Assembly (NCBI GenBank): GCA_004295005.1
Contig: SHNG01000134.1
Coordinates: 1-52,699, forward strand
From: Gammaproteobacteria bacterium
GTDB taxonomy: Bacteria > Pseudomonadota > Gammaproteobacteria > Xanthomonadales > Rhodanobacteraceae
Direction of reading: 5' to 3'
Length of the DNA stretch: 52,699 nt
Shown here: positions 6,239 to 52,699 of the stretch, one piece after another
Position numbering within the stretch: the first letter of the stretch is position 1
How the letters are laid out: each line of letters starts with the position of its first letter
The notes under the pieces: generated by a model
The model's database searches: none
The model's input: only the letters and a program-made list of their open reading frames with translations
Told to the model about the DNA's origin: nothing
Made by a program: the position numbers and the translations under genes

Positions 6239-7165
6239 ATGCGCGCACCGCTACTGATTGATACCGACCCGGGCGTCGATGACGCACTGGCGATCCTGAT
6301 GGCACATCAGCATGCCGAGGTGAAAGGCTTGACGATTGCCGCGGGAAACGTCGGCTTGCGCCACACCGTGAACAATGCCCTGAAGCTGGTTGAAGTGATG
6401 GGACGCGAAACACCCGTGTTTCCCGGTTGCGCGAGCCCCCTGGTGCTCGATGCTGCGGATGCCGCGTTCGTGCATGGCGCCGATGGCTTCGGTGATACCG
6501 GCTATTCGCGATCAACGCGAGTAGCCGCCAGCGAACATGCGGCACTCGCGATCAGTCGCCTGAGCAGGGAATATGCAGGCGAGCTGACGCTGGTCGCATT
6601 GGGACCGCTGACCAACCTGGCACTCGCGCTACGCCTGGATCCTGCGTTGCCGGAGCGCGTGGCGCGCCTGGTGATCATGGGCGGCGCCGTCAACGGACGC
6701 GGCAACACGCATCTGGTGCCGGCGGAATTCAACATCGGCTTCGACCCTGAAGCCGCGCATGTGGTGTTCTGCAACTGGCCGAAGTTCGAGCTGGTGGACT
6801 GGGAGGCGACCGTGCGTCATGGGCTGGCGTATGACGACCTCGAGCAATGGCTGGCCGCCAATGACGACCGGGCGCGATTCTATGCATCGGTATCCCGTCG
6901 AACGCGAAGCTGGGCCAGGCAACATGGACGCCAGCGCATGCTGTCCGCCGACGCATTGGCGATGGCGGTTGCGCTTGATCCCTCCATCATTGTGGAGTCC
7001 GCGGATCGTCACGTTGGCATTGAACTGACGGGGGGCCTCACGCGCGGTGCCACCGTGGTCGACTGGGAACAGCGCATGGCTCGGCCAGCGAACGCCCGCA
7101 TCGTGCTGCAGGTGGATCAGGGAAAATTCGAGAATCTGATCAGGCATGCATTGGGCGCGGCTTGA
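6239..7165 (+). CDS. Nucleoside hydrolase (IunH/RihA-C family)
   Basis: The 308-residue enzyme cleaves the N-glycosidic bond of ribonucleosides to free base and ribose for salvage. The Ca2+-binding DTDPGVDDA motif sits at residues 8-16, and the family's LVIMGGAV and PAEFNIGFDPEAA segments, which contact the ribose and metal, are present in the middle. The histidine near VRHGLAYDD and the WARQHGRQRM region resemble substrate-binding parts of the C-terminal half. Substrate choice (pyrimidine, purine or broad) cannot be read from the sequence, so no symbol is given. It starts 80 bp after recG with only a weak ribosome-binding site. Confidence 0.9.
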   Translation: MRAPLLIDTDPGVDDALAILMAHQHAEVKGLTIAAGNVGLRHTVNNALKLVEVMGRETPVFPGCASPLVLDAADAAFVHGADGFGDTGYSRSTRVAASEHAALAISRLSREYAGELTLVALGPLTNLALALRLDPALPERVARLVIMGGAVNGRGNTHLVPAEFNIGFDPEAAHVVFCNWPKFELVDWEATVRHGLAYDDLEQWLAANDDRARFYASVSRRTRSWARQHGRQRMLSADALAMAVALDPSIIVESADRHVGIELTGGLTRGATVVDWEQRMARPANARIVLQVDQGKFENLIRHALGAA

Positions 7166-38389: not shown

Positions 38390-38400
38390 CTGGAAGCCGG

Positions 38401-38428
38401 GATTCGGGATTCGGGATTCGGGATTCGG
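38401..38428. repeat. GATTCGG heptamer tandem repeat (4 perfect copies)
   Basis: Four head-to-tail copies of GATTCGG occupy 38401-38428; a degenerate fifth (GACGCGG) and a GGATTGGG follow, and another GATTCGGGAATC occurs near 38605-38616. Such short G-rich heptamer arrays are typical of intergenic DNA in Lysobacterales. They are likely variable in copy number. Confidence 0.85.
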
Positions 38429-38459
38429 GACGCGGGGATTGGGAAGCGTTGCTTTTCCG

Positions 38460-38693: not shown

Positions 38694-39851
38694 TTATTGT
38701 TCACCCAACCGCGGCGCGCGGCGTGACAGGGCGAGCTCGGCAGCCGAGAAACAAATCGGTGTACGCACGCCGGGCAGGGTGCTGCCGTTTCCGCCGTCCA
38801 GTTGCAGTTGCATCTTGCGATGGCGCACCTGCGGATCGGCAAATACCTGGTCGATGCTGTTGATCGGTCCAGCCGGCACGCCCTGGGCTTCGAGTTCCGC
38901 AAGCAGCGCATCGCGTGAGTGCGTGGACAGCGCGTCGGTGAGCAAGGCCACCAGTTCTTCGCGGTTCGCCACGCGAGCGGCGTTGCTGGCGTAGCGCGGA
39001 TCTGCGGCCAGCGAAGGCATTCCGAGCAGTGTGCACAGCTTGAGGAACTGGCCATCATTGCCCACCGCCAGCATGATGTGGCCATCACGCACGGCAAACA
39101 CCTGATAGGGCACGATGTTGGGGTGCGCATTGCCCAGCCGCGTGGGCACCTTGCCGGATACCAGGTAATTGAGATTCTGGTTGGCGAGCATGGCGACCAT
39201 GGTGTCGAGCAAGGCAACGTCGACGTGCTGGCCGTGGCCGCTGCGTTCGCGCATGGCCAGTGCCGCCTGGATTCCAATTACCCCATACAAGCCCGCGCAC
39301 AGATCACCGATGGCGACGCCGACCTTCTGCGGCAGGCCATCCGCTTCGCCGGTGATGCTCATCAATCCACCCATGGCCTGGATCATGGCGTCGTAGCCGG
39401 CGCGTGCCGCGTATGGACCATCCTGGCCGAAGCCGGTAACCGAGCAATAGACCAGACGCGGATTCAACGCCGCGAGTGAGGCGTAGTCGAGGCCGTACTT
39501 TGCGAGGCCGCCGACCTTGAAATTCTCGATCAGCACATCGGCATCTCGAACCAGGCTGCGCACCAGTGCTTGCCCGTCCCCGCTGCGCAGGTCGGCAATC
39601 ACGGAACGCTTGCCACGATTGCAACTGTGGAAATAGGCGGCATCACCGTCCGATCCATCGGCGGTGCGCACAAACGGCGGGCCCCAGCGCCGGGTGTCGT
39701 CGCCTTGCGGCGCCTCGACCTTGATCACCTCCGCACCCAGGTCGGCCAGGGTCTGGCCAATCCACGGTCCGGCCAGGATGCGCGCCAGCTCGATCACCTT
39801 GAGTCCGGCCAATGGCGTATTCGCTTCGTGCATGTCGTCAAGCCTTGTCAT
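38694..39851 (-). CDS. CaiB/BaiF family CoA-transferase (glutarate CoA-transferase-like)
   Basis: The 385-residue family III CoA-transferase moves CoA between carboxylic acids. The catalytic aspartate is Asp183 in VGVAIGDLCAGL, after TGEADG. Stretches such as LAGPWIGQTLADLGAEVIKVE, GDDTRRWGPPFV, NIVPYQVF and GPINSIDQVFADPQV recall, from memory, the succinate/glutarate CoA-transferase group (SUGCT, bacterial GcdG) more than carnitine or formyl-CoA transferases. That suggests activation of a dicarboxylate such as glutarate. It diverges from the aminotransferase gene, with a repeat pair in between. ATG 39851 is used; ATG 39833 is possible. The specific substrate is inference. Confidence 0.85.
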   Translation of the reverse strand: MTRLDDMHEANTPLAGLKVIELARILAGPWIGQTLADLGAEVIKVEAPQGDDTRRWGPPFVRTADGSDGDAAYFHSCNRGKRSVIADLRSGDGQALVRSLVRDADVLIENFKVGGLAKYGLDYASLAALNPRLVYCSVTGFGQDGPYAARAGYDAMIQAMGGLMSITGEADGLPQKVGVAIGDLCAGLYGVIGIQAALAMRERSGHGQHVDVALLDTMVAMLANQNLNYLVSGKVPTRLGNAHPNIVPYQVFAVRDGHIMLAVGNDGQFLKLCTLLGMPSLAADPRYASNAARVANREELVALLTDALSTHSRDALLAELEAQGVPAGPINSIDQVFADPQVRHRKMQLQLDGGNGSTLPGVRTPICFSAAELALSRRAPRLGEQ

Positions 39852-39859
39852 GGAAAACT

Positions 39860-39891
39860 CGATTGCAGACGCATCGTAGCGACAATTGCAG
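39860..39891. promoter_or_regulatory. Paired direct repeats, putative MocR operator (caiB-gabT)
   Basis: CGATTGCAG (39860-39868) and CAATTGCAG (39883-39891) are direct repeats starting 23 bp apart, in the gap between the divergent CoA-transferase and aminotransferase genes. The same spacing and consensus CRRTTGCAR recur upstream of the amidase gene on the other strand. MocR regulators such as GabR, TauR and PdxR bind direct repeats. Confidence 0.55.
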
Positions 39892-39980
39892 TTCAATCTG
39901 GCTCCATGGCCGTCGATATTCTGGCCCTATGCGCCGTGGCCCGCGGTTCGCAAGCTTGGCACCTGAGCCGAGGTGAAATG

Positions 39981-41261
39981 ATGACCAACAATGCCAATTT
40001 GCTGGGGCGACGCGAGGCCGCCGTTCCACGCGGTGTCGCCACCGCCCTGCCGGTGTTTGCAGACAGGGCCTTGCATGCCGAACTGTGGGATGTCGAAGGC
40101 AGGCGCTACATCGACTTTGCCTGTGGCATTGGCGTGCTCAATGTCGGCCATTGCCATCCACGCGTGATGGCGGCAGCGCATGCGCAGATCGACCGCTTCA
40201 CGCATACCGCGTTCCAGGTCACGGCGTATGAATCCTACATTGCCCTTGCCGAGCGCTTGAACAATCTGGCGCCGCTGGGTTCAGCGGCCCGTTCGATCTT
40301 CTTTTCCACGGGTGCCGAAGCGGTTGAGAATGCCGTGAAGATTGCGCGCAAGGCCACCGGCCGCTCCGCGCTGATCGCGTTCTCCGGCGCCTTCCACGGA
40401 CGCAGCTTCATGTCCATGGCGCTGACCGGAAAGACCGCACCGTACAAGCGCGGCTTTGGGCCGATGCCGCCGGAAGTCTTCCATGTGCCATTTCCGGTTG
40501 CGCACCAGGGCATCAGCGTCGATGCCAGCATCAAGGCGCTGCATCAATTGTTCAAGACCGATGTTGCCGCCGATGAGGTGGCCGCGATCATCATCGAACC
40601 GGTGCAGGGCGAGGGTGGATTCCATATCGCGCCGCCGGAGTTGCTACAGGCACTGCGCCGCATTGCCGATGACAACGGCATCGTGTTGGTTGCCGATGAG
40701 GTGCAAAGTGGATTTGCCCGTACCGGCAAGTTGTTCGGCATCGAGCATTCCGGCATCCGTCCTGACTTGATAACTGTGGCCAAGGCGCTCGGCGGCGGCT
40801 TTCCGCTGTCGGCGGTCATTGGTCGCGCCGAGGTGATGGATGCGGTTGATCCGGGAGGTCTCGGCGGCACCTACGCAGGCTCACCCGTTGCCTGCGCAGC
40901 AGCCTTGGCCGTGCTCGATGTCATCGAGGAAGAAGGCTTGTGCGCGCGTTCGCAGGCTCTGGGCGACCATGTTGTTGCACAGTTGCTGGCCTTTGCCGCG
41001 CGCAGCGATCTACGCCCGATCGGCCATGTGCGCGCCCTGGGTTCGATGATTGCGTTCGACCTGCTGGCAGAACGCGGAGCGGACGCGGTCGATCCGCTGG
41101 CGGCCCAGGCTGTGATCAAGCGTGCGCACGCGCTGGGCCTGATCGTGTTGGGCTGTGGCGCCCAGGGCGAAGCCGTACGCCTGCTGTACCCATTGACGAT
41201 CACCGATGAGGTGCTGGCCGAAGGCATGGCATTGCTGGAGCAGGCATTGGCAGGCAGTTGA
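39981..41261 (+). CDS. gabT: 4-aminobutyrate/5-aminovalerate aminotransferase
   Basis: The 426-residue class III PLP aminotransferase has the same length as E. coli GabT. The PLP lysine is Lys268 in TVAKALGGGFPLSA; the phosphate-binding STGAEAVENAVKIAR, the FHGRSF segment and VADEVQSGFARTGK with the PLP-contacting Asp are present. It transfers the omega-amino group of GABA, and in homologues (DavT) of 5-aminovalerate, to 2-oxoglutarate. GAGG at 39970-39973 favours ATG 39981 over ATG 39978. It is alone on its strand up to the palindrome at its stop codon; the neighbouring semialdehyde dehydrogenase supplies the next step. Confidence 0.93.
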   Translation: MTNNANLLGRREAAVPRGVATALPVFADRALHAELWDVEGRRYIDFACGIGVLNVGHCHPRVMAAAHAQIDRFTHTAFQVTAYESYIALAERLNNLAPLGSAARSIFFSTGAEAVENAVKIARKATGRSALIAFSGAFHGRSFMSMALTGKTAPYKRGFGPMPPEVFHVPFPVAHQGISVDASIKALHQLFKTDVAADEVAAIIIEPVQGEGGFHIAPPELLQALRRIADDNGIVLVADEVQSGFARTGKLFGIEHSGIRPDLITVAKALGGGFPLSAVIGRAEVMDAVDPGGLGGTYAGSPVACAAALAVLDVIEEEGLCARSQALGDHVVAQLLAFAARSDLRPIGHVRALGSMIAFDLLAERGADAVDPLAAQAVIKRAHALGLIVLGCGAQGEAVRLLYPLTITDEVLAEGMALLEQALAGS

Positions 41262-41385
41262 AAAACTACCTGCGTTGCCATCGCTGCGTTAAAAGCGAGG
41301 CTCAAAATGCTCATTTACGCCACGTAAACTGCGCTTTTTCGCCCTCTTTTGCCTTGCGCTGGCTGCCTCGCCAACGTTTTTCAAC
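41257..41385. repeat. 129-bp imperfect palindromic element at the gabT stop
   Basis: The element is exactly symmetric in layout: two 63-bp arms around CCA at 41320-41322. The outer 10 bp match perfectly (GTTGAAAAAC at 41257-41266, GTTTTTCAAC at 41376-41385), as does the centre (TTTACG-CCA-CGTAAA). The parts between are only partly complementary. The gabT stop codon lies inside its first five bases. The sequence resembles interspersed palindromic elements I recall from several gammaproteobacteria. It may also act as a terminator between gabT and the regulator. Confidence 0.8.
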
Positions 41386-41433
41386 AACCTGCCAAGGTAA
41401 CGCGGCTCACGCTGCTATGCTGGGAACATCGCC

Positions 41434-43248
41434 ATGATGTCCAAGGCCAGGCGCGATCCACGCTCCATGGATGACCTCAATATCGTCCTTGATCCGACCG
41501 ACGGGCTGAGCCTGCAGCATCAGTTGCGCCAGAAGCTGATTGACGCCATTCATCGCGGCGTGCTGCGCCCCGGTCGCCGTTTGCCCTCGTCGCGCAGCCT
41601 GGCCGAACGTATCGGCGTGTCGCGCAACACGGTCAGCCTCGCCTACGACGCCTTGCTTGCCGAAGGCCACATCGTCAGTCGCGCACGCAGTGGCATCTTC
41701 GTGGCAACCGAAGTGGCCAGCGTGCGCATAGCCGTGGCCAGCCGCGCGCCTGCGCCTGCGGGTCCGCTGTTGGAGCGCCTGCCGGCGGCGCCGGATGACC
41801 GCGGTTTCCGTTGTCCAGGCAACTGGCATCAATATCCGTATCCCTTCATCGACGGTTGCGTTGATTCCAGCCTGATTCCCAACTCCGAATGGCGTGAAGC
41901 GCTGCGCCTGGCATCGTCCCGCCACGAGATTGACGGCATCATCCGCAGCGTCGGCGAAGGCGATGATGCAGGTCTCGTCGATGAGGTGCGCAGCAAGGTG
42001 TTGCCGATGCGTGGCATCGATGCCGACGCCGAACAGGTGCTGCTGACGCTTTCCGCACGGCAAGCCCTGCAACTGGTTGGCAGCCTGCTGGTTGGACGCG
42101 GCACGCCGGTGGTGCTGGAGGCTCCGGTCGATGCCGAGTTCGAGCGTCGCATGCGCGATCGCCAGGCCGACTTGTCCATGCTCGATGCCCACGATGGCAA
42201 ACCCCTGCCCGACGGCGCCGTGGTGGTGGGCAGTTGCAAGCGCAGCTATGCCGCCAACTCGCCACGTCCACGCCAACTGCTTGCACGCATCGCCGCGGCC
42301 AATGCGGTGCTGGTAGAACACGACATGCCGGCTGGTGCGCGCGATGGCAGTCACCTGGCGCCAGCCCTGCGCGCGATAGACAACGGACGCCGGGTTGTTT
42401 ACGTGGGCAGCTTCGCGCCAGCGATTTCCTGTGGCGAGGCGCCCGGCATGATCGTCAGCGACGCCGACTTCATTGAACGCCTGCGCCAGTTGCGCCACAT
42501 CCAGGGCGCGCAGTTGCCGAATCTGCTGCAACGCGCATGGTCATACTTCATCGGACTCGGACACTACTCGGCGGCCTTGCTGCGCAGTGGGCGCGTGCTC
42601 GAATCGAGGCGCACGGCACTGCGCGACGCACTCAATCATTACCTGCACCAGCAGGTCAGCATCCACACCTTGCCGGGTGCCAGTGCCTACTGGGTGAGCT
42701 TGCCGCCGCACATGGACAGCCGTGAATTTGCGCGAAACGCGGCGGCGATCGGCGTGCTGGTCGAGCCAACCCGGCTTGATGGAGGACGCGAGGTGCTGTG
42801 CATGGGCGTCACCGGCATCGAAGAGGCGCAGATACGCGAAGGAGTAAGGGCGCTGTCGCGCCTGATCCGTGGTGATCTCAGCCCGGCTTCCCGCCGCATC
42901 GAAGATGACGCGCAGTCACCCCTTCGTGGCGCAGCCCTGCGCAGGAAAATGGCCGGGGCAACCCTGCTCTACAGCACGGTCTACGGCGATCCGGCCACGC
43001 TGGAGGTGCGTGCCAACGGCGAACTGGCCGGTAGTGCCGGCTACGCCGGCGAGGATTGTGACCAGGGTCGCTGGTGGGTGGAAGGCGATCACTGGTGCCG
43101 CCAATGGCAGCGCTGGGCGTATGCCGAGGTCACCGGATTCCGCATCGTCATTGATGGCGACCAGTTGCGCTGGTACGCCGATGACGGCTTGCTTGCCGAT
43201 ACCGCGATCATCCTGCGCAAGCCGCGACGCAAGGCAACGTCGCGCTGA
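41434..43248 (+). CDS. MocR/GabR-type regulator with PLP-lysine loss and extra C-terminal domain
   Basis: The 604-residue protein begins with a GntR winged helix (residues about 15-85: LSLQHQLRQKLIDAI, GRRLPSSRSLAERIGVSRNTV). A class-I-aminotransferase-like domain follows (about 115-480), but the expected lysine of the GTFSK motif is Pro329 in VGSFAPAIS, and the usual EDDYDSE motif reads VEHDMPAGA. PLP binding is therefore unlikely. Residues about 500-597 form an added domain with many Trp and Gly residues (WWVEGDHWCRQWQRW) that I cannot name. It lies between gabT and the amidase operon, both preceded by matching repeat pairs, so it is the probable local regulator. ATG 41434 is used; 41437 and 41467 are alternatives. 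Confidence 0.88.
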   Translation: MMSKARRDPRSMDDLNIVLDPTDGLSLQHQLRQKLIDAIHRGVLRPGRRLPSSRSLAERIGVSRNTVSLAYDALLAEGHIVSRARSGIFVATEVASVRIAVASRAPAPAGPLLERLPAAPDDRGFRCPGNWHQYPYPFIDGCVDSSLIPNSEWREALRLASSRHEIDGIIRSVGEGDDAGLVDEVRSKVLPMRGIDADAEQVLLTLSARQALQLVGSLLVGRGTPVVLEAPVDAEFERRMRDRQADLSMLDAHDGKPLPDGAVVVGSCKRSYAANSPRPRQLLARIAAANAVLVEHDMPAGARDGSHLAPALRAIDNGRRVVYVGSFAPAISCGEAPGMIVSDADFIERLRQLRHIQGAQLPNLLQRAWSYFIGLGHYSAALLRSGRVLESRRTALRDALNHYLHQQVSIHTLPGASAYWVSLPPHMDSREFARNAAAIGVLVEPTRLDGGREVLCMGVTGIEEAQIREGVRALSRLIRGDLSPASRRIEDDAQSPLRGAALRRKMAGATLLYSTVYGDPATLEVRANGELAGSAGYAGEDCDQGRWWVEGDHWCRQWQRWAYAEVTGFRIVIDGDQLRWYADDGLLADTAIILRKPRRKATSR

Positions 43249-43275
43249 ACGCGCATGCCCGCGCAGGCGGCGCGG

Positions 43276-43307
43276 CTGCAACTGGCCCCAAACCCGGGTT
43301 GCAACTG
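43276..43307. promoter_or_regulatory. Paired direct repeats, putative MocR operator (amidase operon)
   Basis: CTGCAACTG (43276-43284) and TTGCAACTG (43299-43307) read on the minus strand as CAGTTGCAG and CAGTTGCAA, direct repeats 23 bp apart as in the caiB-gabT gap. The second overlaps a possible -35 (TTGCAA, 43299-43304) for the amidase gene. Confidence 0.55.
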
Positions 43308-43372
43308 TCACTACTGGGCTTTTCGATCTGGCGCTAACGTCGTCTGCATATCGGAACACGACGGATCCAGCC

Positions 43373-44263
43373 TTGGCCGAGCACACACACGCCGACCCGC
43401 ATGCGGGCGCATCAACATCCTTTGGCATTGCCGGACTCCAGCTTGCGCTTACGGCGGGTGACAACCTCGAGAAGCTCGGCGCCGAGATCGCCGGCGTGGC
43501 CCGGCGCTTTCCGTGGGTGCGCATGATCCTCGCCGGGGAGTTGTGCGGATTTGGCGCAGGCCTCGACCATGCCGAATGCATGCCCGGCGATGCCGAGCAG
43601 CGCCTGTGTCGCCTGGCCGCAGAGCATGGCCTGTGGTTGATTCCGGGTTCGCTCTACGAACTGCGTGATGGGGCGGTCCACAACACCACGCCGGTGATCA
43701 ATCCGCAGGGCGAAGTGATTGCCCGCTACCGCAAGATCTTTCCGTTTTATCCGTATGAGGCCCGCATCGCACCGGGAGATGAATTCGTCGTGTTCGATGT
43801 GCCGGGTGCCGGGCGCTTCGGCATCTCGATCTGCTACGACATGTGGTTTCCGGAAACCACCCGCTCGCTGGTCAGCCTGGGTGCGGAAGTGATCCTGCAT
43901 CCCACCATGACCAACACCATCGATCGCGATGTCGAGATCTGCATGGCGCGTTCCAGCGCCATGACCAACCAGTGCTACTTCGTCGACGTGAATGTCGCCG
44001 GCGAGCTGGGTGTTGGCCAGTCGGTGATCTGCGGTCCCGGCGGCGAGGTCATCTACCAGGCCGGCGTGGGTCGCGAAATCATGCCGTTTGAAGTCGATTT
44101 CGCCTACCTGCGCCGTTGTCGCGCGCGCGGCTGGCACGGGCTCGGCCAGCCGCTCAAGAGTTTCCGCGACAACCCGATCATCTACCCCGCCTATGGCGCA
44201 GCACGGGCGGAATCGCCTGCGCTGGATGCGCTGGGCCCGCTTGAGATGCCAACGCAACTCTGA
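43373..44263 (+). CDS. Nitrilase-superfamily amidohydrolase (carbon-nitrogen hydrolase)
   Basis: The 296-residue enzyme carries the full nitrilase-superfamily triad: Glu56 (AGELCGFG), Lys121 (YRKIFPF) and Cys154 (ICYDMWFPE). Such enzymes hydrolyse amides, N-carbamoyl compounds or nitriles; in this family nitrile activity is the exception. In this context it could release an omega-amino acid from its amide, as 5-aminovaleramidase (DavA) does, though its sequence is not obviously a DavA orthologue. No ATG fits the N-terminus; TTG 43373 is chosen as the last good codon before the conserved core (FGIAGLQLALTAGDN). It heads the operon that runs to the window end. Confidence 0.87.
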   Translation: MAEHTHADPHAGASTSFGIAGLQLALTAGDNLEKLGAEIAGVARRFPWVRMILAGELCGFGAGLDHAECMPGDAEQRLCRLAAEHGLWLIPGSLYELRDGAVHNTTPVINPQGEVIARYRKIFPFYPYEARIAPGDEFVVFDVPGAGRFGISICYDMWFPETTRSLVSLGAEVILHPTMTNTIDRDVEICMARSSAMTNQCYFVDVNVAGELGVGQSVICGPGGEVIYQAGVGREIMPFEVDFAYLRRCRARGWHGLGQPLKSFRDNPIIYPAYGAARAESPALDALGPLEMPTQL

Positions 44264-44315: not shown

Positions 44316-46724
44316 ATGAATTCCAGGACCTCGAACCATGCGCTGATGCAATTGCGCAGACCACGACACACGGTGCTTGCCGTGGCCATTGCCAGCGCCC
44401 TGCTGGTGCAGGCCCAGGCCTTCGCGCAGACCGACAACGACGACAAGGAACAGGACAAGACAACGGAACTGGCACCGGTCACGGTTACCGCACAAGGCCG
44501 CGAGGAAAACATCCTTGCCGTGCCATACAACATCAGCGCGGTGTCCGGCGACAGCATCGAGGAAGCCAACATTCTCGACACCGCTGAACTGATGCGCACG
44601 GTTCCCGGAGTCGGCGTCATTGATCGCGGCGCGCGCAATTCCAGCGTGGTCAGCGGCATCCGCATCCGCGGCCTCAATGTCGACAGTTCCGCGCTCGGCG
44701 ACTACGCGGTGTCCGCTGCCGCAACCGTGGCCACTTACGTTGACAAGACGCCTCTGTTCGCCAACTTCCTGCTGTCCGACATCGAGCGTGTCGAGATCCT
44801 GCGCGGACCGCAGGGCACCTTGTACGGATCCGGTGCCCTGGGCGGCGCGGTGCGTTTCATCCTTCGCGAACCGGACACCGAAGCCTTCAGCGGTCGGGTC
44901 AGCCTCAGCGGTTCCAGCGTCAAGCATTCGGATGACATCGGCGGATCCGCTTCGGCAACCCTGAACATTCCGCTGGCCGACACCCTGGCGATCCGCCTCA
45001 ACACGACGATCAACGATTTCCCGGGCATCACCGACTACCGCAATCTCTACGTGCTCGATGGCCAGGGCATTCCGGTTGCACCGGCCGGGATTCTTGATCC
45101 GGCTGCATCCTATCGGGTGAAGGAAGATGCCGATACGGTCGAGCAGTCCTACGGTCGCGCCTCCCTGCTGTGGCGACCGAGTGACACCTTTGACCTGACC
45201 TTGAGTTACATGGCGCAGGCCGATCGGTTTGGCGGCCGCCGCGGAACTTCGCTCGGCACGGATGGCTTTGGCATTCCCTATGGCGATCTCGAAGTCGGTT
45301 CGGCGCAGCTTGAGCCGGCTGATCGCCATGTGAACCTGGCCAGCCTTGAAGCAAACATCGACCTCGGCTTTGCCACCCTGACATCCAGCACCTCGAGCTA
45401 CAACCACGAGGGCGACATCACCAGCGAGAACACCGGCTTCTATGCCGGCAACGGTTGGTTGGCTTCGTTCTACTACAACTATCCGCGGCCGATGGCTTCG
45501 GCCGTGCGTACCTACGGCGACAAGGCCTTCACCCAGGAATTGCGCCTCACGTCCAATGCCGGCGAGCAGTTCGATTACGTGCTCGGTGCGTATTACCAGG
45601 ACCAGAAGCGGCGCAGCTCGCAGGACAGTTTCCTGCGCGGTTTCAAGCAATGGTGGGATGCCGCTTATCCGGCGTTCGCCGATGCGGTGGTCAGCGACCA
45701 GGATTACCTCTATCGCCAGCGCGAGAAGTTCAAGGAAACCGCGTTCTACGGTGAGCTGACCTGGCACGCGACGGACAGCGTCGATTTCACCGGCGGCTTC
45801 CGCCACTTCCGCGATGAATCCGATACCCGCGTGCAGCAGACCACGGGGTTGTACTCAGCCATCATCGACAGCTCGGATTCAAGTGGCAGCGAAAGCGACA
45901 GCGATACCCTGTTCAAGGGCAATGTGTCGTGGAAATTCTCGCCATCCAACCAGCTCTACGCGACCATTTCCGAAGGTTACCGGCGTGGCGGCACCAATGG
46001 CACGCCGACCACCGGCAACTTTGCGGAGAATCCGGCCTGGACCACCTACAAGGCCGACACCGTGCGCAACTACGAGCTCGGCGTGAAGGGCGCAGTCGGG
46101 CGCATGACCTACAACGCCAACGTGTTTTACGTGGACTGGAAAGATCCGCAAATCAACAGTTCAACCACGAACTGGGGATTCTTCGCCGTGCAGAACGCGG
46201 ATGAAGCCAGCACCCGCGGCATCGAGCTGGAGCTTGCCGGCAGCGCCGGCGACGGATTCACCTACGCACTCGGATACACCTACACCGATGCCCAGTTGGA
46301 AGCCGACGCGGTGGCGGCCGATGGTGCCTACCTGGTCGGCTACAAGGGTGATCGCCTGCCGGGTGCACCCGAGCATCGCTTCAATGCATCAGCCGGATAC
46401 GGCATCCCCATGGCCAATGGCTTGCTCACCATCCGCGGCGACATCTACCACCAGTCGGACATGCGCAATGCACTGAGCCTGAGTCCACGCTTCGATGTGG
46501 ACCTCGATGCCTACACCATCGTCAACGCATCCATGACCTACAGCCGAAACAACTGGGATGCCACGCTGTGGATCAAGAACATCGGCAATACCGATGCGGT
46601 CAACGGCGTCTACACCGAGCTTTACATGGGTACATCGCCCGACCAGAACTACTACGGCAACGGCTCCAAGGCACTGGTCACCTTGCCGCGCACCATCGGT
46701 GTGACGGCCAGCTACCGGTTCTGA
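44316..46724 (+). CDS. TonB-dependent outer-membrane receptor
   Basis: The 802-residue protein has a signal peptide (cleavage about after AFA, residue 37), a TonB box-like LAPVTVTAQ, a plug domain with VPGVGVIDRG, IRIRGLNVD and VEILRGPQGTLYGSGALGGAVRF, and a 22-strand-type barrel ending in phenylalanine (VTASYRF). It belongs to the FecA/CirA-like class used for scarce or bulky nutrients, often carbohydrates or aromatics in Lysobacterales rather than iron. It lies 52 bp after the amidase gene, which suggests it imports the amidase or hydrolase substrate. GGGGG precedes the ATG at 44316. The substrate is unknown. Confidence 0.92.
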   Translation: MNSRTSNHALMQLRRPRHTVLAVAIASALLVQAQAFAQTDNDDKEQDKTTELAPVTVTAQGREENILAVPYNISAVSGDSIEEANILDTAELMRTVPGVGVIDRGARNSSVVSGIRIRGLNVDSSALGDYAVSAAATVATYVDKTPLFANFLLSDIERVEILRGPQGTLYGSGALGGAVRFILREPDTEAFSGRVSLSGSSVKHSDDIGGSASATLNIPLADTLAIRLNTTINDFPGITDYRNLYVLDGQGIPVAPAGILDPAASYRVKEDADTVEQSYGRASLLWRPSDTFDLTLSYMAQADRFGGRRGTSLGTDGFGIPYGDLEVGSAQLEPADRHVNLASLEANIDLGFATLTSSTSSYNHEGDITSENTGFYAGNGWLASFYYNYPRPMASAVRTYGDKAFTQELRLTSNAGEQFDYVLGAYYQDQKRRSSQDSFLRGFKQWWDAAYPAFADAVVSDQDYLYRQREKFKETAFYGELTWHATDSVDFTGGFRHFRDESDTRVQQTTGLYSAIIDSSDSSGSESDSDTLFKGNVSWKFSPSNQLYATISEGYRRGGTNGTPTTGNFAENPAWTTYKADTVRNYELGVKGAVGRMTYNANVFYVDWKDPQINSSTTNWGFFAVQNADEASTRGIELELAGSAGDGFTYALGYTYTDAQLEADAVAADGAYLVGYKGDRLPGAPEHRFNASAGYGIPMANGLLTIRGDIYHQSDMRNALSLSPRFDVDLDAYTIVNASMTYSRNNWDATLWIKNIGNTDAVNGVYTELYMGTSPDQNYYGNGSKALVTLPRTIGVTASYRF

Positions 46725-46773
46725 AGAATCCTGGGGGCGGCATGAACAATCTTGGGAGTGGACCGATCCTGTG

Positions 46774-48411
46774 ATGCAATCAGTACCCCATGCTGATCCA
46801 GCACGTCGATGGGTGCCAACACGATTGAACATGCCAACGCGGGACGTCGAGCAGGCGCTGAACCGGATAGAGGCCCTGCTCGGCACGGGGCAGGCGCGCG
46901 CCGCCGAGCAAGCGGCGCGTGCCTTGCTCTCGAATGCGCCGGATGTTGCGCAACTGGGTGTGCTGCTGGCGCATGCCTTGCGCGCCCAGTCTCGACTTGC
47001 CGAAGCACGGGACGTTCTGGATCACGTCCTCGCCCGCCATCCCGGTCTGGTTTCGGCGCGCATGCTGGATGTCGATCTGTTGCACGCATCCGGCAGGCAG
47101 CAGGCCTGTATTGAAAACCTGCAAGCCCTGGAAGCCGAGGCATCACGTCATCCACCCCGCCTGCTTCAGGATATTGCCCAGCGCTACACCGTGCTCGGTC
47201 TGCACGTCGAGGCGGAGCGCTGCCAGCGTGCGTCGCGACAGCGCGAACCCGACAATGCCGCGATCATCTACAACCATGCCACGGCGTTGATCGCGCTCGG
47301 CAAGCTCGATGAGGCCGAGACGGCGCTGGATCGCGTCATTGCCCTGAAGCCCGGTGACAGTGATGCCTGGTACAACCGCTCGACATTGCGCAGGCAGACG
47401 CCCGCCAGCAATCACATTGGCGAACTCCAGGCGCGTCTTGAGGCAACTGCACCGGCAGTATCCGACCGGGTTGCGCTGGGTTATGCGCTGGCCAAGGAAT
47501 ATGAGGACATCGGCCAACATGCGGAATCCTTCGCCGCGCTCAAACAGGCGGCCGATACGCGACGCAAGCTGCTGCGTTACCGGGTGGAAGACGATATCGA
47601 AACCATGCACTTGATCGCGCAGGCCTTCGATTCGGAGTTCTTCGAGCGCACGCACACCGGGCACGCCGATGCCCGCCCACTGTTCATCGTCGGCCTGCCG
47701 CGCAGCGGCACCACCCTGGTTGATCGCATCCTGAGTTCGCACTCGCAGGTCGGCAGTCGCGGTGAGACCAGCGACCTGGCCATGGCCCTGGTCGGCATGG
47801 CTGGTGCGGTCGGCAGCAAGGCCGAGCTGGTGGAGCGATCAACACAACTTGATTTTGCTGCGCTGGGTCAGCGCTATTGCGCGCACCTCGATGCCGATGG
47901 CGGGGCACGCCAGATCGACAAGACGCCGGTCAATTTCCTCTACCTCGGACTGATTGCCGCCGCCTTGCCCGCTGCCCGCATCATCCATGTGCGCCGCAAT
48001 CCGATGGACGTGGGCTATGCGATGTACAAGACCCTGTTCCGCATGGCCTATCCGTTTTCCTACGATCAAAACGACCTGGCGCGTTATTGGCTGGCCTACG
48101 ACGGATTGATGCAGCATTGGCGCAAGGTGCTGCCAGCCGGCCGCATGATTGAGATCGACTACGAAGAGCTGGTCGCCGATCAGGAAGGGGCCAGCCGACG
48201 CCTGGTCGAGTGGATTGACATGCCCTGGCAGGATCAATGCCTGGCTTTCGAGAAAAATTCCTCGCCGTCGCTGACAGCCAGCGCAGCCCAGGTGCGCCAG
48301 CCGATCTACTCGAGTTCGGTGGGCCTGTGGAAGCGCTATGCCAGTGAACTTGCACCCCTGCGCGATGCCCTGCGCGCGCGCGGCATCCACATCGAGGGAG
48401 ATCCGGCGTGA
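46774..48411 (+). CDS. TPR-repeat sulfotransferase family protein
   Basis: The 545-residue protein has TPR repeats in residues 1-230 (ARALLSNAPDVAQLGVLLAHAL, IIYNHATALIALGKLDEAETAL) and a P-loop sulfotransferase domain with the PAPS-binding GLPRSGTTLVDRILSSH near residues 307-323 and VRRNPMDVGYAMYK for the 3'-phosphate. It is the kind of TPR-sulfotransferase often found beside TonB receptors. The acceptor is unknown; tyrosine sulfation and modification of a small metabolite are both conceivable. GTG 46771 or ATG 46774 begins the frame; no clear ribosome-binding site. Its stop overlaps the MFS start. Confidence 0.88.
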   Translation: MQSVPHADPARRWVPTRLNMPTRDVEQALNRIEALLGTGQARAAEQAARALLSNAPDVAQLGVLLAHALRAQSRLAEARDVLDHVLARHPGLVSARMLDVDLLHASGRQQACIENLQALEAEASRHPPRLLQDIAQRYTVLGLHVEAERCQRASRQREPDNAAIIYNHATALIALGKLDEAETALDRVIALKPGDSDAWYNRSTLRRQTPASNHIGELQARLEATAPAVSDRVALGYALAKEYEDIGQHAESFAALKQAADTRRKLLRYRVEDDIETMHLIAQAFDSEFFERTHTGHADARPLFIVGLPRSGTTLVDRILSSHSQVGSRGETSDLAMALVGMAGAVGSKAELVERSTQLDFAALGQRYCAHLDADGGARQIDKTPVNFLYLGLIAAALPAARIIHVRRNPMDVGYAMYKTLFRMAYPFSYDQNDLARYWLAYDGLMQHWRKVLPAGRMIEIDYEELVADQEGASRRLVEWIDMPWQDQCLAFEKNSSPSLTASAAQVRQPIYSSSVGLWKRYASELAPLRDALRARGIHIEGDPA

Positions 48412-49604
48412 CTCAGGCGCAGATGCAAGCTCATGCAGAGGGCGTGGGCGTGGTTCGCCATGATCGCCTCTGGCTGTACCTGTTGTTTGCCCTGCTCGCA
48501 ACCGCCGGATTCTTCTACATCAACATCATGTCGGCCATCGTCGATGGCCTGATCACCGGACTCGGCTTCAGCAATGCCGAAGCGGGCCTGGTGGGATCGG
48601 CCAACATCTATGGCGCCAGTTTCGGCAGCCTGTGCGCGGTGTTTATCGTGCGCCACATCCGCTGGCGGCCCGCCCTGCTGGCCCTGTTCCTGGTGATGAT
48701 GTCCCTCGACCTGGCATCGACATTGATCCATGCGCCCGTCCTGCTCGCAGCCGTGCGTGGAGTGCATGGCGTCATTGCCGGCATGAGCGTGGGCATCGTC
48801 TACTCGGTGATGGCGCGACTGCATTCACCGGATCGTGCCTTTGGCGTGCTGCTGGTGTTGCAGTTTGCGCTGGGTGGACTGGGCGTGATGTTGCTGCCAC
48901 AACTGGTGCCGCAGTTTGGTGCGCGCATCCTGTTCATGGTGCTGGCCGGGTTGACCCTGCTGGCCCTCGTTTCCATGCTCGCCGTGCCGAAGTCGTTGAC
49001 CGGCAATGGGACGAAAGATGATCGTGCCGAAGCGCCGACCCGCTACCTGAGGCCCGTCGTGCTGCTTTCGTTGCTGGCCTTGTTCCTGTTTCAGGCCGGC
49101 AACATGGCCTTGGCCGCGTTCATCATCCGGCTCGGCGAGCACGCGCAACTGGAGCGCGGTTTCATTGGCGATGCATTGGGATGGGCCACCTGGCTCGGCA
49201 CCGCCGGCGCCGTGCTGGTGATCGTCATGGGCGCACGCTTCGGTCGTTTGCGTCCGCTGTTTGCCGCCTTCCTGCTGACCCTCGTGGGTACGGCAGGATT
49301 CCTGTGGAGTTCGAATCCGCTGGTTTTCCTCATCGCCAACATCGGCACCGCCATCACCTGGTCGTTTGTGGTGCCGTACTTGTTCGGCATGATTTCGCAG
49401 CTTGATTCCAGTGGTCGACTGGCGACCCTCGGCGGTTTCGTTTCCAAATGCGGCCTGGCGTCCGGCCCGTTGCTCGCCGGGCTGCTGCTGCGTTCCGACA
49501 ATTTCGACTTGCTGATCTGGTTGAGCGTGCTGGTGCTGGCAGTTTCTGCCATGGCCGCCTTCATGGCCGCACAGCGGATCGATCAACAGGAGGTTTCAGC
49601 GTGA
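48408..49604 (+). CDS. MFS transporter
   Basis: The 398-residue membrane protein has 12 predicted helices in two halves, with a loop near the middle ([20 protein letters not shown]). Hydrophobic segments such as [18 protein letters not shown] and [22 protein letters not shown] show the layout; the first-half [10 protein letters not shown] and the basic IRWRP turn match the usual loop 2-3 position. It should carry the small product across the inner membrane after outer-membrane uptake. Translation likely starts at GTG 48408, overlapping the previous stop as GTGA; ATG 48423 is an alternative. Substrate not assignable. Confidence 0.9.
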
Positions 49605-51076
49605 ATGCCGTTTCAAGCATCCCCGGTCTCACCGATCTCGATCTGCTGCGTACGCAATGCCTGATCAATGGCCAATGGCTCGATCAGGCAAAAGGCAAGA
49701 GCTGTACCGTATCCAATCCCGCCAGCGGGCAGGCCATTGGAACCGTGCCTGACCTTGGCGCCGATGAAACCAATGCGGCGATTGCCGCGGCGCACGAGGC
49801 TCTGCCTGCATGGTCGGCGAGAACAGCAAAGGAGCGCGCACAGGTTCTGCGCCGCATGGTCGAGTTGATGTTGCGGCATCAGGAAGACCTGGCGCGCATC
49901 CTCACCGCCGAACAGGGCAAGCCGCTGGCCGAGGCGCGCGGCGAGATCGCCTACTCGGCCAGTTTCCTCGAATGGTTCGGCGAGGAAGCCAAGCGCATGT
50001 ATGGCGACACCATTCCGGGGCACGCGCGCGACAAGCGCATCCTGGTGCTGCGCCAACCGATCGGCGTGGTGGCGATGATCACGCCGTGGAATTTTCCATC
50101 GGCCATGCTCGCGCGCAAGATCGGCCCCGCGCTCGCTGCCGGTTGCACGGTGGTGTGCAAGCCGGCCTTGCAGACGCCGTTCTCCGCACTGGCCTTTGGC
50201 GTGATTGCCGAACGCGCCGGCATCCCGCCCGGCGTCATCAACATCGTCACCGGCAGTTCATCGCGTGCGATTGGCGCTGCGATGACTTCTCACCCGGATG
50301 TGCGCAAGCTGAGCTTCACCGGCTCCACCGAGGTCGGCAAGCAGTTGATGGCGCAGTGTGCCACCGGCATGAAGCGGGTGTCGCTGGAACTCGGCGGCAA
50401 TGCACCCTTCATCGTGTTCGATGATGCCGATCTCGATGCGGCAGTGCAGGGCGCCATTGCCAGCAAGTACCGCAATACCGGCCAGACCTGTGTGTGCGCC
50501 AACCGCCTGTTCGTGCAGGCAGGTGTGTACGACGCCTTCGCGCGCAAGCTGGCCGATGCGGTGAAGAAACTGCGTATCGGTGACGGCCTTGCCGGGGAAA
50601 CCGAGCAAGGCCCGCTGATTGACGCGGCTGCCCTGGCCAAGGTCGAGCAGCACGTGGCCGACGCGGTGGGCAAGGGTGCGCGGGTGTTGTGCGGCGGCAA
50701 GCGTCATGCACTCGGCGGCACCTTCTACGAGCCGACCCTGCTCACCGATGTCAACACGGACATGCTGATTGCCGGGGAAGAAACCTTTGGCCCGGTGGCA
50801 CCCCTGTTCCGTTTCGACACCGAAGCCGATGCGATCCGCATGGCCAATGACACCGAGTTCGGTCTGGCCGGCTATTTCTACACGCGTGATCTTGCGCGCA
50901 GTTGGCGTGTGGCCGAGGCGCTTGAATGCGGCATCGTCGGTGTCAACACCGGCATCATCTCCACCGAGGTTGCACCGTTCGGTGGCATCAAGCAGTCGGG
51001 AACCGGTCGCGAAGGCTCGAAGTACGGCCTCGACGACTACACCGAACTCAAGTACGTGTGCATCGGGGAAATCTGA
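49601..51076 (+). CDS. gabD: NAD(P)-dependent succinate/glutarate-semialdehyde dehydrogenase
   Basis: The 491-residue aldehyde dehydrogenase matches GabD/Dav[24 protein letters not shown], the [10 protein letters not shown] segment near the cofactor, [11 protein letters not shown], general base Glu263 in LELGG, and nucleophile Cys297 in [11 protein letters not shown], then [16 protein letters not shown]. It oxidises the semialdehyde left by the GabT-type enzyme. The start is GTG 49601, decided by a consensus AGGAGG at 49588-49593, 7 bp upstream, and a GTGA overlap with the MFS stop. It lies in the same operon as the transporter and hydrolase, while gabT is in a separate unit. Confidence 0.94.
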
Positions 51077-51077
51077 A

Positions 51078-52699
51078 GTGAAGGCGCCTGCGCTGCTGTG
51101 TCTGGTTCTGCTTGCTTGTGCCGCATCCGCTTGGGCGCGCGATTTACTCGACCACCGGTCCATGCTGTCCGGCGGCTATCGCAACAGCGTGGATCTGTCC
51201 GCCTATGCGCCGGGTGCCGACGCAAGGCCGCCGACGCATCGTTTCGAAGGCAGGCTCCGACTTTCCGGCAAGCCCATGCAGCGTACCCGGGTGGCCAACA
51301 CCGACTACCTGAGCGCCGAAAGCATCAAGGCATCGAAAAACTTTCCCGGGGATCTGGAATTCTCATTCGTGCAGGATGGCGATGCACTGATTCCCGCACA
51401 GCGCGGACCAATCCGTGGCAATGATGCCTGGTGGGAAGTGATTCTCGAACCTGGCCGCGTGTGGGATGAACCCGGCGACAAGGGCTTGAGTCGTGCCGCC
51501 ATTCCGTTTGCCCTGACCCAGAAGAACGCCAACTGCACGCACAACGGCGTCTTCATGTTCCTTTTCGACGACAAGCGCATTGTGGGCCGCGCGGCGATGC
51601 AGGTCAGCAGCGAGACCTGCCTCTACCTGCAACGCGACATGTGGGGCTGGCTGAAGGCGCACTATGCGCCGCGGACGGTGGCCGATGCGCAAGAGCTGAT
51701 CGCAGGTTACCGGCACGAAGTGGCTGCGCGCCTGCCGACCCGGCCGCTGTCGGCATTGGCCAGCGAATTTCCCGGATTGGAAGTGTCCAGGCTTGCCACT
51801 GCACCGGACAGTTCGCGCACCCGCCACGGGGTTTACTTCAAGGGCATCCACTACGTGTCGGATTGCCCGACCCGGCATGGCAACTATCCGTACTGCGAGG
51901 TGCTCGATGTGCCATCGTACTCCGTAGCCAAGTCCGTGGTGGGCGCGATGGCGCTGATGCGCATGGAGAAGCTGTTCCCGGGCAGCAAGCACACGCCGGC
52001 CAGCATTGTTCCAGCCACCGGTTGCCGCAGTGACTCCTGGAAGGGCGTGAATCTGCTCAATCTGCTCGACATGGATACCGGACACTACGATTCGGCCAGC
52101 TACATGGCCGATGAGGATTCGGCAAGGATCGTGCAGTTCTTCAATCCGGAAGACTACCCGCACAAGCTCGCCTTCAGTTGCGAGGCTTACCCGCGCCACG
52201 AAGACGCGGGCAAGACCTGGGTCTACCACACCGCCGATACCTTCCTGCTCGGCGTTGGCCTCAATACCTTGCTCAGGCAACAACCCGGACAACAGGGCAA
52301 GGACATCTTCAGCGACGTGGTCGATGCCGACATCTACGCGCCGTTGAAGCTCAGCGCTACCGCGCGCACCACGCGCCGCACCTACGATGATTACGCCCAG
52401 GCGTTTTTCGGCTGGGGTTTGTTCCTGCATGCCGATGATCTGGTCAAGCTGGCACGCTTTCTCGCGCTGGATCATGGCGTCATCGATGGCCAGGCGCTGC
52501 TTGATCGATCAATGCTGGATGAGGCCCTGCAACGCGATCCTCGGCAGCGTGGATTGCAGGTCGCGCACCTTGCAAAGTTCCGCTACCAGCACGGCTTCTG
52601 GGCACGCAACCTGCAAACCGAACTCGGCTGCGACAAGCCCGCATGGGTTCCCTTCATGTCCGGCTTTGGCGGCATCCTGGTGGTGATGTTTCCCAACGG
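51078..52699 (+). CDS. Serine hydrolase of the beta-lactamase superfamily (3' end outside window)
   Basis: The frame opens at GTG 51078, one base after the gabD stop, and stays open for at least 540 residues to the window end. It begins with a signal peptide (PALLCLVLLACAASAWA). The first 240 residues lack a clear match; the C-terminal part has the class C/DD-peptidase-like fold signature, with the nucleophile motif SVAK at 282-285, YHT at 383-385 in place of YxN, and SGFGG near residue 530 in the KTG/HxG position. It is exported, so it probably cuts an amide or ester outside the cytoplasm. Several Cys residues may form disulfides. The natural substrate is unknown. Confidence 0.85.
   Translation, partial: MKAPALLCLVLLACAASAWARDLLDHRSMLSGGYRNSVDLSAYAPGADARPPTHRFEGRLRLSGKPMQRTRVANTDYLSAESIKASKNFPGDLEFSFVQDGDALIPAQRGPIRGNDAWWEVILEPGRVWDEPGDKGLSRAAIPFALTQKNANCTHNGVFMFLFDDKRIVGRAAMQVSSETCLYLQRDMWGWLKAHYAPRTVADAQELIAGYRHEVAARLPTRPLSALASEFPGLEVSRLATAPDSSRTRHGVYFKGIHYVSDCPTRHGNYPYCEVLDVPSYSVAKSVVGAMALMRMEKLFPGSKHTPASIVPATGCRSDSWKGVNLLNLLDMDTGHYDSASYMADEDSARIVQFFNPEDYPHKLAFSCEAYPRHEDAGKTWVYHTADTFLLGVGLNTLLRQQPGQQGKDIFSDVVDADIYAPLKLSATARTTRRTYDDYAQAFFGWGLFLHADDLVKLARFLALDHGVIDGQALLDRSMLDEALQRDPRQRGLQVAHLAKFRYQHGFWARNLQTELGCDKPAWVPFMSGFGGILVVMFPN

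Follow-up and report, generated by a model that had tools for sequence, protein, structure and literature searches.

The two transcription units that flank a MocR-type regulator gene in the window (the whole 52,699-nucleotide stretch of DNA that was analysed) each carry an operator of direct repeats with starts 23 bp apart, close to WCTGGHCYNA followed by WCTGGNYCTA, and repeats of this kind track the MocR gene across the order. The initial annotation had joined both units into one regulon under the gene between them through a shared word, CRRTTGCAR; the idea of a shared regulon stands, but the proposed word does not. Taking the evidence as a whole, we consider it likely that the MocR protein acts from the 23-bp operator to activate a regulon for amide or peptide degradation, and that it senses without a PLP aldimine. 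A two-site guess is thereby replaced by an operator checked on 398 genomes, and the regulon gains a predicted substrate class.

The regulator gene (41434..43248, + strand, 604 aa) is preceded by a gene for a gabT-type class-III aminotransferase (39978..41261, +, TIGR00700 above its cut-off) and, on the opposite strand, by one for a CaiB-type CoA-transferase (38694..39854, −), which NCBIfam places closest to succinate-glutarate CoA-transferase, at 578.6 bits and so below the cut-off of 750. Behind it, all on the + strand, follow a carbon-nitrogen hydrolase (nitrilase-superfamily amidase, 43373..44263, uncertain TTG start), a TonB-dependent receptor (44316..46724), a TPR protein with a sulfotransferase domain (46771..48411), an MFS transporter (48408..49604), an aldehyde dehydrogenase (49595..51076, scoring above the cut-off of the SSADH subfamily TIGR01780, with an uncertain start), and a hydrolase that runs off the window (51132..52697), a 45% relative of a serine-hydrolase-like protein encoded on an unlinked contig, C64. 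The family of the C64 hydrolase was found in 24 of 25 genomes with a MocR orthologue, against 1 of 11 others tested. Predicted targets are gabT, the run from the amidase through the receptor, sulfotransferase, transporter and dehydrogenase to the hydrolase, and an unlinked secreted hydrolase. Judged by gene families, this regulon would import, cleave and degrade an omega-amino-acid amide or peptide, with the amidase, omega-aminotransferase, semialdehyde dehydrogenase and CoA-transferase as putative pathway enzymes.

A 23-bp operator site was present in all 24 readable MocR-amidase gaps (score at least 14.4; 16 strict, 8 weaker), a spacing that agrees with operators of the MocR class, whose repeats lie one or several helical turns apart (PMC5320631). 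Of the 398 genomes searched in the order, 25 have a MocR orthologue, and the strict form occurred in 21 of these but in none of the 373 others (Fisher p = 3e-31, uncorrected for kinship); its backward control gave 3 matches. Among the four orthologue genomes with no strict site, three (G118, G192, G223) had weaker sites, and in the fourth (G207) the contig ends inside MocR. A motif-free check found a 5-mer exactly repeated at a distance of 23 bp in 14 of the 24 gaps, the maximum over 200 shuffles at any spacing being 8. Scoring with a matrix trained on 35 strict sites gave 50 sites at or above 14 that were not overlapped by a stronger one, and all 50 were directed at the next gene. By hand tally, amidase genes stood behind 24 of them, and operator sites also lay upstream of TonB-receptor genes (15), gabT (4), aldehyde dehydrogenase-gabT (4), MocR (1) and some secreted-hydrolase genes (2). 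A hydrolase stood directly behind a site in four genomes (G000, G006, G143, G227), and no site scoring at least 14 was found at the other fetched hydrolase loci; a separate operator for the hydrolase within the cluster was rejected, its fetched stretch (L177) containing none. Good operator sites were present in G002 and G006, yet no MocR orthologue was found there. The loose operator pattern was unspecific, with 43 of 47 genomes matching among the matches listed, and rates near the backward control where the orthologue was absent.

Operator 1 (39897..39929, +) faces gabT and consists of a distal box TCTGGCTCCA (39897-39906) and a proximal box TCTGGCCCTA (39920-39929), with starts 23 bp apart. 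It is a strict match with a score of 29.1, is conserved in G003/L003, and is the sole exact match to WCTGGCNC at 23 bp in the genome. Control of caiB by operator 1 is not supported, because the site faces gabT; the relative L003 also has extra bases between the site and caiB. Operator 2 (43281..43336, +) faces the amidase run with a box every 23 bp: ACTGGCCCCA (43281-43290), a degenerate ACTGTCACTA (43304-43313), and TCTGGCGCTA (43327-43336). Its scores are 22.9 and 14.5, with no strict match, and its L003 counterpart reads ACTGGCCCCA / ACTGGCCCTA / TCTGGCGCTA. Three boxes occur in Dokdonella, four at 23 bp in G277, and two in most other genomes, so the third box was not adopted as an essential operator part. 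The loose pattern had four hits in the window's own genome, two of which (C39, C91) were taken for chance; an unlinked site (score 24.0) lies before the hydrolase gene on C64.

The best -10 match lay 21-22 nt behind the proximal box in 25 of the 50 sites, and elsewhere in the remaining 25. The -10 score peaked at offset 21 with a value of 0.85, against -2.99 for the best among 500 shuffles, and no -35 score peak was found at the matching place over the same 50 sites (about -2.5). Because the -10 preference comes without a -35 peak, the regulator is probably an activator. The boxes would sit at about -66/-57 and -43/-34, a geometry read from the sequence, so a dimer bound to the two head-to-tail boxes may replace the missing -35 element and thereby activate transcription. 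At the amidase promoter, the family-wide offset and the sequence predict a -10 element TAACGT (43335..43340, +), at offset 21 behind the second box and overlapping the third; at the gabT promoter, the offset rule would place it at CAAGCT (39951..39956, +), a poor match that is, with the degenerate middle amidase box, a weakness of the window. Many GntR proteins repress, and the same operator could serve a repressor that occupies the -35 region until an inducer releases it. The proximal box, immediately upstream of the predicted -10, is placed suitably for this too, and the third boxes of Dokdonella and G277 overlap possible -10 elements; repression is nevertheless unlikely, given the absence of a -35 score peak where one is expected and the activator-like preferred distance to the -10, and GabR, TauR and PdxR activate their target genes (PMC5320631).

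The regulator is composed of an N-terminal GntR winged helix (residues 28-90, PF00392, E 6e-15), an aminotransferase-like domain to about residue 480, and a C-terminal beta-barrel at about 497-595. Pfam detected no aminotransferase domain in the protein; the fold-type-I assignment is supported by the structural model (pLDDT 74), for which Foldseek ranked GabR 4mgr first at E 3e-26, and the phmmer alignment to GabR spans residues 14-480. NCBIfam scores were under cut-off for PdxR (NF052282, the top hit, 186.7 bits against 320), rhizopine MocR (NF052281, 145.7 against 650) and GabR (NF052285, 82.4 against 600). For the C-terminal domain, Pfam gave a chance-level hit only (PRR20, E 0.16), and fold matches to the barrel were weak (best E 0.009). 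In GabR, K312 is the PLP Schiff-base lysine and D279 the pyridine aspartate. Pro329, His296 and Met298 of the window protein align with GabR K312, D279 and Y281, so that by alignment the hallmark lysine and aspartate of MocR proteins are missing; loss of Tyr281 alone says little about PLP, because the residue is Val or Ile in two of three MocR clusters (PMC6677901).

Among 24 barrel-bearing proteins, the PLP lysine was kept in 12 and the aspartate in the same 12, and the lysine was kept in all 14 relatives without a barrel (their frames end before it) and in 2 with cut-off ends. Members of the window's clade differ at the lysine, at the aspartate and in the TPSHQ loop. The pocket is completely lost in a single clade with full support, subject to a warning of long branches in the tree; lysine changed to arginine three separate times. 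The window regulator seems to have lost its vitamin B6 (PLP) pocket, and the best reading is a MocR variant with sensing moved off the PLP aldimine. Since the pocket of the aminotransferase-like domain appears to be gone, the inducer would be sensed by a remodelled pocket or by the added C-terminal beta-barrel. PLP might instead still be bound, non-covalently or via another lysine, leaving the protein a PLP sensor, and the joint retention of lysine and aspartate in half of the barrel-bearing orthologues fits this; with lysine, aspartate and loop all altered in the fully supported, if long-branched, window clade, we regard continued PLP sensing as quite improbable there. A decaying regulator with a remnant operator is very improbable: the long branch of the window's clade, its degenerate middle box and the relic-like sites of G002 would fit decay, but the L003 MocR protein is 96% identical with an open frame while aligned DNA blocks are 86-90% identical, and operator and gene order are kept.

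For sensing moved off the PLP aldimine, one tentative and somewhat doubtful route is that a gained calycin-like C-terminal barrel took over inducer binding and the PLP pocket then eroded, with the operator unchanged. Our confidence in this route, and in the overall explanation, was slightly lowered because Tyr281 varies within MocR proteins and 2 of 16 relatives outside the order are cut before the tail. If the route is correct, a MocR regulator would be working without vitamin B6. Two general questions become testable, namely whether a MocR regulator can dispense with PLP, and whether sensing can pass to an added domain with no change in the operator or the promoter geometry; proteins with the lysine kept, with lysine changed to arginine, and with the pocket gone, all sharing one operator, form a natural experiment. 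A literature search (title and abstract level, limited for subscription journals, main texts without supplements) found no such regulon and no MocR protein lacking the PLP lysine; RegPrecise tables may list one.

The CRRTTGCAR pairs were confirmed at both promoters with starts 23 bp apart: CGATTGCAG (39860-39868) and CAATTGCAG (39883-39891) on the + strand of the caiB-gabT gap, and CAGTTGCAG (43276-43284) and CAGTTGCAA (43299-43307) on the − strand of the amidase gap, where they overlap the first two boxes of operator 2. CRRTTGCAR-N14-CRRTTGCAR has exactly these two matches in the assembly (3,469,551 bases, 87% complete by software estimate); the backward control gave 0 matches in the same assembly, and the expectation of ~0.0045 from base composition is circular, the pattern having been written from both hits. 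Conservation upstream of orthologues, a test that the initial annotation had proposed, failed. No TTGCA pair at 23 bp was found in 17.8 kb of L003, where the two places in the caiB-gabT gap are pushed apart by ~170 extra bases, the second reads CAATCGCGA, and one copy in the amidase gap is changed to CAGTTGCTG. Across 26 orthologue stretches of 25 genomes the pair was found only in the window's own stretch, and a looser TTGCAR pair occurred once outside the window, in G030, ~10 kb from its MocR. The amidase-gap pair is a shadow of the overlapping true 23-bp repeat (boxes 43281-43290 and 43304-43313), and the caiB-gabT pair, which is excluded from the operator and has a different, conserved repeat (39897-39929) directly downstream, is best taken as a coincidence. 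That these pairs are themselves the operator is hardly credible, ruled out as CRRTTGCAR is by conservation, even though both of its genome matches lie beside the MocR gene and one overlaps conserved boxes.

Compared with known systems, the window boxes are similar, not identical, to the direct repeats of TauR from Rhodobacter capsulatus, a member of the same MocR subfamily with the box consensus CTGGACYTAA (quoted in PMC5320631). According to the same source, TauR serves taurine genes and is PLP-dependent, whereas the window neighbours are an amidase, gabT, a CoA-transferase, a TonB receptor and an aldehyde dehydrogenase, so taurine-utilization targets of the TauR type are not matched. GabR of Bacillus subtilis, the best structural match, activates gabT and uses direct repeats two or three helical turns apart (PMC5320631), but keeps K312, D279 and Y281, and the window protein extends 124 residues further. 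PdxR, DNA-bound structures of which are among the Foldseek hits, controls PLP synthesis or salvage (PMC5320631), whereas the window protein, despite its top NCBIfam hit, lies below the PdxR cut-off. Among 16 gammaproteobacterial MocR relatives from outside the order (L188-L203), lysine, aspartate and tyrosine were intact in all 16, 14 end without a barrel, and 2 (L193, L202) are truncated where their contigs stop; the flanks fetched with these genes, at most 1.5 kb long, gave no amidase match. A site scoring at least 14 was present in 6 of these 16 fetched stretches, and in 4 of the 6 the site lies between the MocR gene and a divergently oriented GabT-like gene.

The regulator is best read as a MocR derivative whose operator is of the classical type and whose sensor probably is not. 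The CRRTTGCAR pairs proposed as its operator in the initial annotation are present in the window, at 39860 and 39883 in the caiB-gabT gap and at 43276-43284 and 43299-43307 on the other strand in the amidase gap, both with 23 bp spacing, and the spaced pair is rare, the 3.47-Mb assembly holding 2 matches, those two alone. As a conserved motif CRRTTGCAR proved wrong: no TTGCA pair at 23 bp was found in L003, the closest named relative (a Dokdonella MAG, MocR 96% identical), and no CRRTTGCAR pair in the other orthologue stretches, among which the looser TTGCAR pair occurred once, in genome G030, far from the cluster. Within the L003 caiB-gabT gap the TTGCAG words are altered, with ~170 extra bases between them, and TCTGGCTCCA-N13-TCTGGCCCTA is retained; the L003 amidase gap carries ACTGGCCCC, ACTGGCCCT and TCTGGCGCT at a 23-bp period. 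The ~170-base insert (L003 ~6400-6570) lies between caiB and the gabT operator, and is MITE-like, with inverted ends GGGAAACTCTGAT...ATCAGAGTTTCCC.

In an order-wide search, MocR matches at E <= 1e-60 were found in 30 of 398 genomes among the matches listed, and the 25 best genomes (E <= 3e-88) were taken as orthologue holders; the five left out (G041, G151, G175, G235, G394; E 1e-75 to 4e-61) had matches without the C-terminal part. MocR-amidase gaps were readable in 24 of the 25 (23, window included, plus G087 on a second contig), the G207 contig ending within MocR, and all 24 contained two boxes at 23 bp, near WCTGGHCYNA and WCTGGNYCTA, with a weight-matrix score of at least 14.4. The strict pattern was satisfied in 16 of these gaps, the remainder being G000, G118, G143, G168, G192, G202, G223 and G227, with the window's own included. 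A motif-free check recovered identical 5-mers at 23 bp in 14/24 gaps, and 200 shuffles gave at most 8 for any spacing. Outside the order, G417 encodes a full-length protein with an amidase behind it and a site scoring 29.8 between them.

The loose pattern, derived from the MocR-amidase gaps, also picked up sites in front of genes for TonB receptors, gabT and aldehyde dehydrogenase, none of which was used to derive it, and was unspecific (at least 43 of 47 genomes matching). The strict pattern, searched in 398 genomes with handles identical to those of the MocR search, gave 35 sites in 21 genomes, all orthologue holders, and 0 sites in the 373 others, with 3 matches for the backward control; orthologue genomes lacking a strict site were G118, G192, G207 and G223. 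A weight matrix trained on the 35 strict sites, and thus not independent of them, gave 53 sites scoring at least 14 in 24 loci, of which 3 overlap a stronger site and all 50 non-overlapping ones face the next gene; a sub-threshold site (score 11.5) lies within a TonB gene. PMC5320631 describes MocR operators as repeats in direct or inverted orientation, most of them containing TGT or TGG, and cites CTGGACYTAA for TauR; a search of its main text for xanthomonad, amidase, TonB or nitrilase gave no hit.

With -10 and -35 weight sets applied to the 50 sites, the mean score for a -10-like hexamer was highest at 21 nt downstream of the proximal box, reaching 0.85 against -1.88 for the next value and -2.99 for the best among 500 shuffles; the best match lay at offset 21-22 in 25 sites and elsewhere in the other 25. 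This peak implies box positions near -66/-57 and -43/-34. The -35 score showed no peak at the place matching the -10 (about -2.5), and its maximum, 0.27, fell on the box itself. Judged from sequence, this geometry fits an activator replacing the -35 element; a repressor at the same operator is the less likely reading. At 43327-43340 the amidase operator's third box and the predicted -10 overlap, and at the 23-bp period the final TA of a box coincides with the expected -10 TA; this may be a built-in means of shutting the promoter off when regulator levels are high, or may be chance.

The MocR protein combines a winged helix with an aminotransferase-like fold, nearest GabR, in which K312 is the PLP Schiff-base lysine and D279 the pyridine aspartate. 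Whereas GabR has K312, D279, Y281 and a TPSHQ loop, the aligned window protein has P329, H296 and M298 and has lost the loop. Y281 stacks on PLP, and its position is Val/Ile in two of three MocR clusters, according to passages of PMC6677901. The model of the 112-residue C-terminal stretch (pLDDT 92) shows one short helix plus a beta-barrel that weakly resembles lipocalin-type barrels (best E 0.009, none < 0.001).

Of the 24 proteins with a barrel (23 from the order, plus G417), 12 keep lysine at the lysine position, 7 (G417 included) have arginine there and 5 another residue; G223 alone retains all three PLP residues, which are present in 16/16 outside-order relatives. Fourteen of those 16 have no barrel (L203 among them with a frame break); L193 and L202 run off their contigs before the tail. 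Lysine was kept in 12/24 barrel-bearing versus 14/14 barrel-less proteins (p 0.001, uncorrected for kinship). A tree, carrying a long-branch warning, placed complete pocket loss in one clade (support 100/100) and K-to-R changes three separate times within the 23 order proteins. The operator probably predates the barrel, because sites scoring at least 14 occur in 6 of the 16 outside-order relatives (L191, L192, L193, L194, L201, L202), 4 of them facing a divergent GabT-like gene.

In 24/24 loci MocR adjoins the amidase, and the stretch read includes a TonB receptor; a TPR-sulfotransferase was found in 23 (the G118 stretch ends before showing one) and an MFS transporter in 20, some stretches ending early. 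In G223 receptor and sulfotransferase are inverted. The enzyme families at the locus (amidase, GABA-type aminotransferase, succinate-semialdehyde-type dehydrogenase, CoA-transferase near succinate-glutarate) suggest that the regulon degrades an omega-amino-acid amide, for example a 5-aminovalerate compound.

A PF00144-type hydrolase is present in 24 of 25 orthologue genomes. The window's own genome gave four loose-pattern matches: operator 1 in the caiB-gabT gap, two matches that end in G on contigs C39 and C91 and were taken for chance, and one on C64, whose site (score 24.0) precedes a 722-aa secreted hydrolase-family member with a weak family match (E 0.011). Members of the family likewise follow sites in G143, G227 and G006; G006 (85% complete) has a site scoring 25.3, and the search returned no MocR orthologue for it. 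In G002, which belongs to the genus Dokdonella, is estimated as 100% complete and lacks the MocR orthologue, two apparent relic operators lie at 1817 and 3701 of stretch L181; these sites score 19.1 and 20.4, one stands before an apparent broken hydrolase start and the other beside a caiB, and they are read as decay. Large secreted-looking proteins with an N-terminal region and a serine-hydrolase-like part are encoded at L139 577-3078 (G143; Ig-like matches in the N-terminal region) and L149 5012-7180 (own genome; no NCBIfam name).

Elsewhere in the window, a 141-bp intergenic repeat (41258-41398) lies between gabT and the MocR gene, with 11 further matches in the genome (up to 90-94% identity, some partial); the L003 gabT-MocR gap is < 60 bp, without this repeat. 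A short tandem repeat of the 7-base unit GGATTCG, seen by eye, lies at 38400-38429 behind a GAPDH-like gene.
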